Assembly: GCA_021810805.1 (NCBI GenBank)
Contig: JAJZHW010000009.1
Span: 1-57,775, forward strand
Length of the DNA stretch: 57,775 nucleotides
Reading direction: 5' to 3'
From: Nitrospirota bacterium
Lineage (GTDB): Bacteria; Nitrospirota; Leptospirillia; Leptospirillales; Leptospirillaceae
A model generated the notes under the pieces. It saw only the letters and a program-made list of their open reading frames with translations. It was not told where the DNA came from and made no database searches. A program made the translations under genes and the position numbers. Shown piece after piece: positions 30,259 through 36,464 of the stretch (positions are counted from its first letter, which is position 1; every line of letters starts with the position of its first letter).

Positions 30259-31086
30259 CTAAGGGAGCAGCTTGATGGCTGCCTGTGGAATCAGGTTCGA
30301 CTGAGCCAGAACCGCCGCACCCGACTGCGACAGAATCTGCCGCTTGGTGAACTTGGCGGTCTCTCCGGCGAAATCCACGTCGCGGATTCCGGCACGGCTG
30401 GCCTGAACGTTTGTGGTGGCGGTGTTCAGGTTCCGGATCGTCCACTCCATACGGTCCTGGATGGCACCGATGTTACCTTGAAGCTCGTTGATCTTGTCCA
30501 ACGCCTTGTCCAGCTTTTCAACTGAATTCTTGGCGTCGTTGCGGTTCATGATGTCCGTCCCGCTGATGCCGAGGGCATCGGCATCGACCTTGCCGACCTT
30601 GACGTGCAGACGGTCGCTGAAGGAGGTGTAGATACCCACGTGAAACTTGAAGTCCTCATGGCTTCCGTCGAGGAGCTTCATGCCGTTGAAGTCGGTCACC
30701 TTGGCGATACGGGTGATTTCCGACTTGAGGTGCTGGTACTCCTGGTTGAGCACCTTGAGATCCTTCGGGGAGTAGGTGCTGTTGGCCGCTTCGATGGCCA
30801 GCTGCCGCATCTTCAGGATGATGGTGTTGTCGGTCTGAAGAGCCCCGTTCGTCGTCTGCAGGAGGCTCGATCCGTCATTGGCATTCCGGATGGCCGCCGC
30901 ATAGGACTTGACCTGTCCGCCCATACGCTGGGAGATCGCGTAACCGGCCGGGTCGTCCGCTGGGCTGTTCACGCGGTACCCGGAGGAGAGCCGGTTGATG
31001 TGCTTCGCCAGAGCACGCTGGGTTTCGTTCAGGTTGTACTGCGCATTCATCGACGCAATGTTGTCATTGATGACTAAACCGCTCAT
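30259..31086 (-). CDS. fliC: Flagellin 1
   Basis: A 275-residue flagellin. The conserved D0/D1 N-terminus (MNAQYNLNETQRALAKHINR, LSSGYRVNSPADDPAGYAIS) and C-terminus (NLNTATTNVQASRAGIRDVD, QSGAAVLAQSNLIPQAAIKL) are joined by a short central domain, so it is a minimal filament protein. It has its own sigma-28 promoter and terminator and a 90-nt leader with several GGA motifs. AAGGAGG precedes ATG 31086. It is about 50 percent similar to the second flagellin. The gene directly after the csrA-fliW fusion suggests post-transcriptional control. Confidence 0.95.
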   Translation of the reverse strand: MSGLVINDNIASMNAQYNLNETQRALAKHINRLSSGYRVNSPADDPAGYAISQRMGGQVKSYAAAIRNANDGSSLLQTTNGALQTDNTIILKMRQLAIEAANSTYSPKDLKVLNQEYQHLKSEITRIAKVTDFNGMKLLDGSHEDFKFHVGIYTSFSDRLHVKVGKVDADALGISGTDIMNRNDAKNSVEKLDKALDKINELQGNIGAIQDRMEWTIRNLNTATTNVQASRAGIRDVDFAGETAKFTKRQILSQSGAAVLAQSNLIPQAAIKLLP

Positions 31087-31175
31087 TGTTCCCTCCTTGG
31101 TTGATTCGGCCTTATCCCTGGCCTTGTCCTTTTGGTGCCCGGCGACGTGACCGGGGAGGCGATCCTCTTCGCCTC
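31087..31175 (-). promoter_or_regulatory. Flagellin 1 leader with candidate CsrA sites
   Basis: The 5' leader holds AAAAGGACAAGG, CAGGGATAAGG and, at the ribosome-binding site, CAAGGAGGGA. CsrA recognises A-N-GGA, best in a hairpin loop, and represses flagellin in Bacillus by covering such a site. Overlap with the Shine-Dalgarno is seen; binding is inferred. Confidence 0.45.
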
Positions 31176-31182
31176 AAGGACC

Positions 31183-31210
31183 TTTTCGGCAGGGGGCCAA
31201 AAAAACTTTA
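31183..31210 (-). promoter_or_regulatory. Sigma-28 promoter of flagellin 1
   Basis: On the minus strand TAAA (31210-31207), 16 nt, GCCGAAAA (31190-31183). The -35 shares its TAA with the stop codon of the csrA-fliW fusion. The enterobacterial spacing is 15; the flgM promoter here also uses 16, so the local factor may prefer it. Confidence 0.8.
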
Positions 31211-31906
31211 GGGGGTCTCCGAATTTTTTTTCGGAAGAAAAATCGGCTGGCGGAGCCACTCCTCAGACTCAGCCAAAATCACCTGCCGGCCGAGCCTTTC
31301 AGCCTCACGAACCAGGAGGGGGGCAAGAAGGTTGGCCGTGGCGGTCTCTCCGGAAAAGGTCACGATCACCATCGCTGTCAGCTCAGTGGACGGAATCGGC
31401 GAGAAAAACTCCCGGTCCCACTCGGGAAGAACGAGCCGGGACAGGTAGTCCGGAACGAGCAGGACCGGATCCATGACCACAAAGGCCAGCGCCGGATCGT
31501 CGAGGGACTGGAGCCAGTAAAAGACCTGCTCTTCCCCCGTCTCAAGAAGAAGAAAGCGCTGGGCTCCCGGAAATCCCGGAAGGCCGTCGGGAAAGCGGAT
31601 CACCCCCGATTCCGACACCGGGATCTCTCCGAAGCGAACTGTTTTGAATGTCGACATGGCCTCCCTGCCCTTGTCCGTTTTCCCGGCCGGCTGGTGAACG
31701 TCCCCGGCCACACTCTCTCTTGGGCTGTCCATCGCATTGCGGTTTTCCTCCTCGATGCGACGGAGGACCTCGTCCCGATGGACACGGACGCCTTCCGGCG
31801 CCTCGATGCCCAGACGGACAGAGCTTCCCTTCACCTCCAGCACCACCACCCGAACCGACGTTCCGATGGTGATGCCCTCCCCATTTTTTCTCGTCAGGAT
31901 AAGTAT
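31208..31906 (-). CDS. CsrA-FliW fusion protein
   Basis: One uninterrupted frame encodes 232 residues. Residues 1-58 are a full CsrA (LILTRKNGEGITIG, VVLEVKGSSVRLGIEAP, VHRDEVLRRIEEE, with the RNA-binding R44). A linker of about 25 residues follows, then residues 84-232 are FliW (VRFGEIPVSESGVIRFPDGL, WLQSLDDPALAFVVMDP). No ATG, GTG or TTG stands at the CsrA start. An ATA at 31906-31904 takes the place of the usual ATG and has GGAGG at the ideal 5 nt. FliW also has its own AGGGAGG and ATG (31657), so free FliW may be made too. CsrA blocks translation of flagellin mRNA and FliW sequesters CsrA until flagellin binds FliW. The gene lies between flgL and flagellin 1. Confidence 0.85.
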   Translation of the reverse strand: MLILTRKNGEGITIGTSVRVVVLEVKGSSVRLGIEAPEGVRVHRDEVLRRIEEENRNAMDSPRESVAGDVHQPAGKTDKGREAMSTFKTVRFGEIPVSESGVIRFPDGLPGFPGAQRFLLLETGEEQVFYWLQSLDDPALAFVVMDPVLLVPDYLSRLVLPEWDREFFSPIPSTELTAMVIVTFSGETATANLLAPLLVREAERLGRQVILAESEEWLRQPIFLPKKNSETP

Positions 31907-31935
31907 GGCGTCCTCCCTTCCCTGGGCGTACGGTT

Positions 31936-32877
31936 TTAGTGGAACAACACGTTCTGGACGTTCTGGAGAATGTTGCGGCTGGCCTTGGCGCTCACCTCGA
32001 GGAGATTTTGAGAGAGAGCCATTCGGGAAGCCGCCCGGGGGATGTCCACATCCTCGGTCTGGCTCCGGAGGACCTTGAGGTCGGTCCGGTACTTCTCCAG
32101 CCGGGAGATGGTGCTGCGGAGAGCGCGTTCGTAAGTTCCCAGAACCGCCGAGCGCTCGGAGACCTTTCTCACGGCCGTGTCGAGCTCGCCGATGGCGGAC
32201 TGGATCGCCTTGTCGTCATTGTTCTTGAGCCCCACGATGAAGCGTCGGAGGGCAGGAAAGGCCAGGTTGGCATTGGGGGCTTTTTTGGAGTCTCCGAGAA
32301 GCTTGTCTCCGGCCATTGTGGTCTTCAGAAGACCCGCCTGTCGAAACGAAGGGGTAAAGCCCTGCTGGATCGTCGAGCTCTTGTGGTTTCCCTGGTAGGA
32401 AACCACAAAGGGCTCCTCCTTCTGCGGGTCGGAAAGCAGGAAGGGGGGGACGCTGATGTTCGTCCCCCCGAAGAGGTACTGTTCGCCTCCCCGGGTGTTG
32501 GCCAGGGCGACCGTTTGTTCCAGGAGCCTCTCCGCCTCTTCGGCGGCGATCCGCCGGTCCTGGGAGTCCATGGTGCCGTTGGCCTGCCGGATGGCCAGCC
32601 CCTTGGCCCGGATCATGATGTTGTCGATCTGTGTCAGGATGCTTTCCATCAGGGCGATGCGGGTGGCTCCCTCCCGGGCGTTCTGGATGATCTGTCCGGT
32701 GACGGCCAGGGAGCGGTTGACCCGAAGGACCTCGCTCATCGCCTCAGGGGCATCCCCCGGGGTATCGGCACGAAGCCCGGAAGAAACCTGCTTTTCCGCC
32801 TCGTAGAGATTCTCCGTGGCCCGGTCATGGTTCGCCATGAGGGAGCGGTCGGTCATCAGCCCTGTCACACGAATCAT
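31936..32877 (-). CDS. flgL: Hook-filament junction protein FlgL
   Basis: A 313-residue flagellin-like junction protein. N-terminal MIRVTGLMTDRSLMANHDRA and VSSGLRADTPGDAPEAMSEV are the D0/D1 helices, EQYLFGGTNISVPPF the typical mid-segment, and RAASRMALSQNLLEVSAKAS, the C-terminal D1/D0 helices. It joins FlgK to the filament. It follows flgK by 13 nt and precedes the csrA-fliW fusion by 30 nt, so flgK, flgL and csrA-fliW are probably one transcript from the flgM promoter. Confidence 0.93.
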   Translation of the reverse strand: MIRVTGLMTDRSLMANHDRATENLYEAEKQVSSGLRADTPGDAPEAMSEVLRVNRSLAVTGQIIQNAREGATRIALMESILTQIDNIMIRAKGLAIRQANGTMDSQDRRIAAEEAERLLEQTVALANTRGGEQYLFGGTNISVPPFLLSDPQKEEPFVVSYQGNHKSSTIQQGFTPSFRQAGLLKTTMAGDKLLGDSKKAPNANLAFPALRRFIVGLKNNDDKAIQSAIGELDTAVRKVSERSAVLGTYERALRSTISRLEKYRTDLKVLRSQTEDVDIPRAASRMALSQNLLEVSAKASRNILQNVQNVLFH

Positions 32878-35603: not shown

Positions 35604-36464
35604 TTACGGAATCAGCTTGATCGCTGCCTGGGGGATCTGGTTGGCCTGGGCCAGGACCGCCGTTCCCGACTGCTGGAGAATGCGATCCCGCACAAACCGC
35701 GAGGTCTCCTTGGCGAAGTTGGCGTCCTTGATCTGGGACTTGGTGGCCGCAATATTGACGAGAGCGGTATTCAGGTTCCGGATCGTCCAGGTCATTCTCT
35801 GCTGGAAGGCGCCGAGAGTTCCCTGAATCCGGTTCAGCTCGTCGAGGGCTCCATCGATGGCAGAGACGGCCGAAAGGGCCATCTGGCTGTTGATGACCGA
35901 TGTCATCCCCAGCGGCATCATAAGGGTGCTCCCCTGGTAGAGACCCAGAACGTCGGTGCTGATGGACGGTACGGCGATCACGAGGCGGTTTTCGCCTTCA
36001 GTACCCACGTCGACCTGGAAGGTCAGCCCTCCCTCGAGGCTTCCGTCAAGCACCTTCCGCCCGTTGAAGTTGGCGACCTTGGCGATACGGTTGATTTCGC
36101 TCTGGAGGTTCTGGTATTCGTTCTGCAGGGTCGACAGATCGGTGTCGTTGTACGTCCCGTTGGCGGCCTGAATGGCCAGGGACCTCATTTTGATGAGGAT
36201 CTCGTTGTCGGTGAGAAGGGCCCCGCCGATGGTCTGGATCAGGTTCGCCCCGTCGTTCGCATTCCGAACCGCCTGCTGGACCGACTTCATATAGGCAGTC
36301 ATGACCTGGCCGATGGAGTATCCGGCGGGATCGTCGGCCGGGGTGTTCACCCGATAGCCGGACGAAAGCCGGTTGATCGTCTGGTTGATGCGGTTCTGGG
36401 TTTCGTTCAGGTTGTACTGGGCTCCGAGAGACGCCGCATTGGTGTTGATGACCAATCCACTCAT
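35604..36464 (-). CDS. fliC: Flagellin 2
   Basis: A 286-residue flagellin paralogue. The terminal regions (LNETQNRINQTINRLSSGYR, VNTPADDPAGYSIGQ, and SGTAVLAQANQIPQAAIKLI) match flagellin 1; the central domain differs. It is 12 nt downstream of flgJ and has no sigma-28 promoter of its own; ATG 36464 is preceded by GAGGAGGTGA. It therefore appears to be expressed with the rod/ring operon, earlier than flagellin 1, perhaps as the hook-proximal filament protein (inference). Confidence 0.93.
   Translation of the reverse strand: MSGLVINTNAASLGAQYNLNETQNRINQTINRLSSGYRVNTPADDPAGYSIGQVMTAYMKSVQQAVRNANDGANLIQTIGGALLTDNEILIKMRSLAIQAANGTYNDTDLSTLQNEYQNLQSEINRIAKVANFNGRKVLDGSLEGGLTFQVDVGTEGENRLVIAVPSISTDVLGLYQGSTLMMPLGMTSVINSQMALSAVSAIDGALDELNRIQGTLGAFQQRMTWTIRNLNTALVNIAATKSQIKDANFAKETSRFVRDRILQQSGTAVLAQANQIPQAAIKLIP

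Follow-up and report, generated by a model that had tools for sequence, protein, structure and literature searches.

The window, that is, the whole stretch of 57,775 nucleotides that was analysed, encodes CsrA and its antagonist FliW on a single polypeptide. One frame on the minus strand, read from 31906 to 31208, runs through CsrA (residues 1–58), a linker of 25 residues (59–83) and FliW (84–232); the plus strand of 31208–31906 translates to an unrelated peptide only. It is nearly certain that this fusion is encoded and conserved. We propose, with a probability of about 0.55, that the gene specifies a bifunctional CsrA–FliW regulator, in which a fusion made from a weak start and extra free FliW would together mediate a flagellin-released repression of flagellin. 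The arrangement appears to be a variant of the Hag–FliW–CsrA switch, of which the three-part form is already known.

Table 1. Positions of the csrA–fliW gene, its parts and the adjoining features in the window.
Feature	Position	Strand	Remarks
csrA–fliW fusion gene	31208..31906	-	232 codons and stop TAA (31208–31210); translation and domain matches
CsrA domain, residues 1–58	31733..31906	-	L4, R44, I51, N55 kept; dN/dS 0.03–0.10
Variable linker, residues 59–83	31658..31732	-	contains internal Shine-Dalgarno, 31660–31666
FliW domain, residues 84–232	31211..31657	-	Pfam match; dN/dS 0.09–0.19
ATA start of the CsrA part; most relatives have ATT	31904..31906	-
Shine-Dalgarno AGGGAGGA ahead of the ATA codon	31911..31918	-	by eye
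Internal FliW start codon, ATG here	31655..31657	-	codon 84
Flagellin leader, proposed CsrA target	31087..31207	-
Hairpin GGCC-AGGGAUAA-GGCC, GGA in loop	31108..31123	-
Flagellin Shine-Dalgarno AAGGAGGG, second GGA site	31091..31098	-
Flagellin, proposed regulated gene	30259..31086	-	Flagellin_N and Flagellin_C
flgL-like gene, upstream neighbour	31936..32877	-	Flagellin_N/C match

A fused csrA–fliW gene in the flagellar cluster

The earlier note had described an in-frame CsrA–linker–FliW protein that keeps R44, and this description was confirmed on the minus strand by Pfam matches and by the occurrence of the fusion in 12 genomes of the genus. The strand itself, the ATA first codon and the CsrA-type sites of the flagellin leader were absent from that note. 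Pfam CsrA (PF02599) matches residues 2–53 with 67 bits (cut-off 27), and Pfam FliW (PF02623) matches residues 103–222 with 98.2 bits (cut-off 25). The CsrA part also passes NCBIfam TIGR00202 (72.2 bits against 70.1) and NF002469 (74 against 73) and falls below the cut-off of NF001844 (43.9 against 106); the FliW part falls below every NCBIfam FliW equivalog cut-off, the best score being 92.9 bits against 130. Residues L4, R44, I51 and N55 of the CsrA part are present in 12/12 fusions, and L4 is a residue that we take to contact RNA. R44 is an RNA-contact residue of CsrA, and V51 and N55 of Campylobacter CsrA have been mapped as FliW contacts (PMC7829508); these two FliW-contact positions are occupied by I51 and N55 in all 12 fusions of the genus. 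Both domains are under strong purifying selection, with dN/dS values in clade A, clade B and all 12 fusions of 0.048, 0.031 and 0.100 for CsrA and of 0.138, 0.088 and 0.192 for FliW. The linker is much looser and little constrained (0.463, 0.544 and 0.522, respectively). A dead CsrA remnant was ruled out by the dN/dS of 0.03–0.10 together with the kept key residues.

The gene was said to sit between flgL and a flagellin gene; this location proved correct and is conserved in the genus. The minus-strand cluster reads FlgI, rod-binding protein, flagellin, FlgM, FlgN, FlgK, FlgL-like protein, fusion, flagellin, FliD and FliS, and from its position after FlgK we infer that the upstream neighbour is FlgL. 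A family search of the source genome (88.67% complete) returned a single CsrA and no second csrA; this CsrA, like the one match to the fused protein, lies at the fusion locus.

The 21 genomes examined are those available for the family, and equally for its class, and comprise 14 genomes in the genus and 7 in other genera. The fusion lies on one contig in 12 of the 14 and is stop-free in each, the contig of G005 ending at residue 218. G011 has its CsrA half at the end of one contig and its FliW half at the end of another; in G008 csrA–fliW was not matched. Flagellin in G008 consists of short fragments only (G008:C40:7507-7714), as if the locus had decayed or were missing from the assembly. Outside the genus, csrA and fliW are separate genes in 6/7 family genomes, and the seventh (G018, 64% complete) gave no match. 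The sister csrA has 93–94 codons in 7/7 copies from six sister genomes, and in each copy there is a 4-nt overlap between its TGA and the ATG or GTG of fliW, which lies in a different frame with a G-rich stretch ahead. The genus would therefore have exchanged this overlap for a covalent join. The overlap suggests an earlier translational coupling of csrA and fliW, of the kind shown for the Bacillus fliW–csrA pair (PMC6529632). In 19 outgroup loci, selected because one match extends over the two genes, csrA is followed by a stop and then by fliW in the same frame.

A match occurs in 220/395 genomes of a phylum sample, and among the matches listed the full-length stop-free ones all come from the genus. 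One partial stop-free match, in G121 (residues 26–212), was rejected: its CsrA and FliW domains lie in different frames. Domain profiles were applied to the open frames of 60 loci from outside the genus (54 distinct; L114 and L025 contain csrA only in part), and none of the 54 had both domains in one frame; the same test recovered the fusion in 4/4 genus controls. Among the 20 of 230 plasmid matches listed, the two covering at least 80% are separately annotated genes, and 32 pattern matches in viral contigs included no relative. No description of a natural CsrA–FliW fusion was found in the open-licence literature, which agrees with the earlier note's impression that no such system had been described; the fusions in PMC13407953 and PMC4682653 are, in the parts of these papers that treat them, laboratory constructs. 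A csrA gene with a rare start was likewise not found in that literature, and none of the Leptospirillum csrA titles concerns a fusion.

The codons at the two starts

No ATG, GTG or TTG is present in frame from the upstream stop to residue 20 of the window gene, as is seen from the mechanical ORF list, which begins the frame at GTG 31849. The window gene has ATA as its first codon; in 12 other scored genomes of the genus it is ATT (10) or ATG (2), and in the sister copies it is ATT in 7/7, giving 17 ATT, 1 ATA and 2 ATG for the family (n=20 copies). Outgroup csrA begins with ATG in 43 and with GTG in 3 of the 46 scorable loci (of 47, one being truncated). Elsewhere in the fusions isoleucine is encoded mostly by ATC (127/158). 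In clade B (G004, G006, G009 and G013) only 10 codons upstream remain before the frame closes, and no ATG, GTG or TTG is among them. An upstream ATG in G012, five codons before the CsrA start, was discarded; no Shine-Dalgarno is visible ahead of it by eye. A regulator–antagonist gene with an AUU/AUA start is thereby found across nearly the whole family, and a simple ORF list truncates such a gene.

The infC gene encodes IF3, and its autoregulation is known in other bacteria. In this family, the infC start position, placed by eye, reads ATT in 13 and ATC in 5 of the 18 loci scored (of 21), the rare start class also seen in csrA. Among the loci scored, ATT is the start in the genus and in G016, and ATC in the remaining five from sister genomes. 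Although G014 and G015 are placed in different genera, their infC starts (L094 and L095) are identical, suggesting that G014 is contaminated. IF3 represses ATT-class starts in other bacteria, and the AUU/AUA-type class is well characterised for infC and few other genes (PMC5472188); IF3 may also control the csrA–fliW start.

The internal ATG at 31657, preceded by AGGGAGG, stands as the earlier note gave it and is conserved; the Shine-Dalgarno, which that note called strong, is moderate, its predicted strength placing it no higher than the top 13% of the in-frame positions in the window gene. Ten of the 12 fusions have ATG at codon 84 and two have GTG, next to a linker whose identity is 14–18% in the two cross-clade pairs compared and whose length differs by exactly three codons among fusions. 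In simulations, the chance that 12/12 genes retain ATG, GTG or TTG at this codon was 0.0035 at half the third-position rate, and a less striking 0.05 and 0.17 at 0.25 and 0.15 of that rate. Predicted energies of the internal Shine-Dalgarno range from -4.3 to -12.2 kcal/mol across the 12 fusions and place it among the strongest 1–17% of in-frame positions in 11/12 genes, the weak one being that of G006 (-4.3 kcal/mol, 44%). Free FliW is likely to be made from codon 84. The rare AUU/AUA start of the fusion and the conserved internal ATG/GTG predict FliW in excess, and the strict 1:1 stoichiometry that had been expected of a covalent fusion is probably wrong.

The linker is variable and, by eye, rich in glycine and serine, and it is probably disordered; no conserved motif, a cleavage motif included, was seen by eye in the 12 sequences. 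That it is free of stops is weak evidence and proves little, because the other two frames are themselves nearly stop-free (stops in just 3/12 and 1/12) and a neutral simulation of a stop-free linker gave 0.014–0.086.

The flagellin leader as a candidate CsrA target

By sequence, 17/17 leaders of the adjacent flagellin have a hairpin with GGA in its loop and a second GGA at the Shine-Dalgarno, a CsrA-type layout. These are 11 genus and 6 sister leaders; the leaders of G005 and G013 and the second locus of G016 were left out. The hairpin lies ahead of the Shine-Dalgarno and has the form GGCC-AGGGAURA-GGCC in the 11 genus leaders and GGUCC-ANGGAUN-GGACC in the 6 sister leaders, and the Shine-Dalgarno is AAGGAGGG in all 17. 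With the hairpins aligned from their outer ends, we read a change from C-G to U-A at the third pair between the groups. The sister form lies directly 3' of fliW at every occurrence; 5 sister genomes have one copy each and G016 has two. G016 has two csrA–fliW loci (G016:C40 and G016:C6), each followed by the GGTCCACGGATTGGACC hairpin, a pattern that may reflect a strain mixture or a duplication. One genus genome, G012, has an extra sister-type hairpin elsewhere, and its reversed control has one too. Two CsrA sites have been described for hag, with a comparable layout for glgC (review, PMC7652899).

Four-pair stems that enclose a GGA in their loop are common by chance, being present in 559/3848 60-nt windows here (14.5%) and in 6.5–24% of the shuffled versions of four leaders; the weight therefore lies in the conservation of the hairpin. 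Folding support is mixed. The minimum-energy fold of the whole leader contains the hairpin in only 3/11 genus leaders versus 6/6 sisters, the window leader being among the 8/11 without it, and RNAalifold applied to the leaders returned trivial structure only, without the hairpin. Out of 200 shuffles, 13–15 matched the isolated genus hairpin, and 0 and 1 matched the two sister hairpins that were examined. A Shine-Dalgarno hairpin in the window leader reaches -0.7 kcal/mol and is absent in practice. As a mark of a wider regulon the hairpin was rejected, its one other site in the genome having one mismatch and lying, by eye, inside an opposite-strand gene. A second flagellin (35604–36464, minus strand) is 58% identical to the flagellin beside the fusion; by eye its leader is without the hairpin, and this gene is perhaps outside the switch.

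The proposed switch and competing readings

In the model that we propose, weak initiation at AUU (AUA in the window genome) would yield the CsrA–FliW fusion, and initiation at the conserved internal AUG or GUG behind its Shine-Dalgarno would yield free FliW, so that CsrA would always have an attached FliW and FliW would probably be in excess. At rest, FliW of the same or the partner chain would sit on the CsrA helix near I51 and N55 and prevent RNA binding by the CsrA dimer. Flagellin that accumulates unexported would bind FliW, the free pool first and the tethered copies next. The uncovered CsrA would then bridge the GGA of the leader hairpin and that of the Shine-Dalgarno on the adjacent flagellin mRNA and block its translation until export restarts. 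Flagellin-released autoinhibition of this kind is plausible, and it fits because I51 and N55 are kept and the flagellin leader has CsrA-type sites. A single FliW is enough to inhibit a CsrA dimer in B. subtilis (PMC6529632); if the same holds here, a fused dimer would inhibit itself until both FliW copies are drawn off. Tethering should thus raise the flagellin threshold unless the CsrA–FliW contact is weaker. A more tentative extension is that the tether acts as a flagellin sensor, with flagellin acting on CsrA–FliW itself and the unequal starts setting the threshold and placing the switch under IF3. If true, flagellin supply would be tied to the state of translation initiation, with no titration of a diffusing antagonist.

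The alternatives are compatible with one another and with parts of this model. An ancestral overlapping csrA–fliW pair may have lost its stop and its frame offset once, leaving a joined protein without any new property. Since the sister genera already overlap the two genes by 4 nt, the join may alter little, and the fast-evolving linker without a visible motif and the nearly stop-free alternative frames agree with this. However, the fusion has outlasted substantial divergence in 12/12 intact loci with the internal start kept beside it, and we consider such a neutral origin rather unlikely. It is also possible, if doubtful, that the gene chiefly yields free FliW, made from the internal start, and that the fusion is a minor isoform giving just enough CsrA. 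The conserved internal ATG/GTG and the IF3-repressed class to which ATT belongs in other bacteria (PMC5472188) favour this; yet, by eye, a G-rich Shine-Dalgarno precedes the AUU/AUA as well, two species have ATG as first codon, and in some species the internal Shine-Dalgarno has a moderate or weak predicted strength.

The variable, glycine- and serine-rich linker, probably disordered, would also suit a post-translational cut that separates CsrA from FliW, but no conserved cleavage motif was visible by eye in the 12 sequences, and this explanation is improbable. A sequencing or assembly artefact might be suspected because the genus genomes are draft assemblies; the identical fusion in 12 separate genomes, with linkers that differ in length by exactly three codons, led us to reject it.

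The preferred reading, a flagellin-released CsrA–FliW regulator, shares with Hag–FliW–CsrA of Bacillus subtilis the two domains and N55 (PMC6529632). The hag leader and the flagellin leader here each have one GGA upstream and one at the Shine-Dalgarno (PMC7652899), and csrA and fliW are overlapping genes in Bacillus as in the sister genera (PMC6529632). The Bacillus system consists of two separate polypeptides, encoded in the order fliW–csrA and with about one FliW per CsrA dimer (PMC6529632), whereas the gene here is a single frame for one polypeptide, in the order csrA–fliW and with an AUU/AUA start; carriage on one chain therefore implies two tethered FliW per dimer, with probable free FliW in addition. 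The Campylobacter jejuni proteins share the CsrA contact positions 51 and 55 but are separate and have V at 51, where the fusion has I51 (PMC7829508). In the Geobacillus FliW–CsrA crystal 5dmb, the FliW chain corresponds to residues 88–223 and the CsrA chain to residues 2–66 by sequence match alone, and 5dmb has two chains where the protein here has one. SigR–RsrA of Streptomyces is alike in that a rare, IF3-repressed regulator start helps to keep the antagonist in excess; it differs in its unrelated sigma and anti-sigma proteins, its GTC start and its unfused genes (PMC5472188), and a role of IF3 here is conjectural. The fusion would thus be a naturally occurring one-chain form of a three-part switch that has been well studied, and in it the amount of FliW and its affinity can be tested against each other as setters of the threshold.

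A further observation concerns the csrA messages themselves. By eye, GCC-AAGGAA-GGC surrounds the Shine-Dalgarno of csrA itself in 19/47 outgroup genes, and GGA repeats lie ahead of the fusion gene in the window (31907–31928, minus strand), as if CsrA might also repress its own mRNA.
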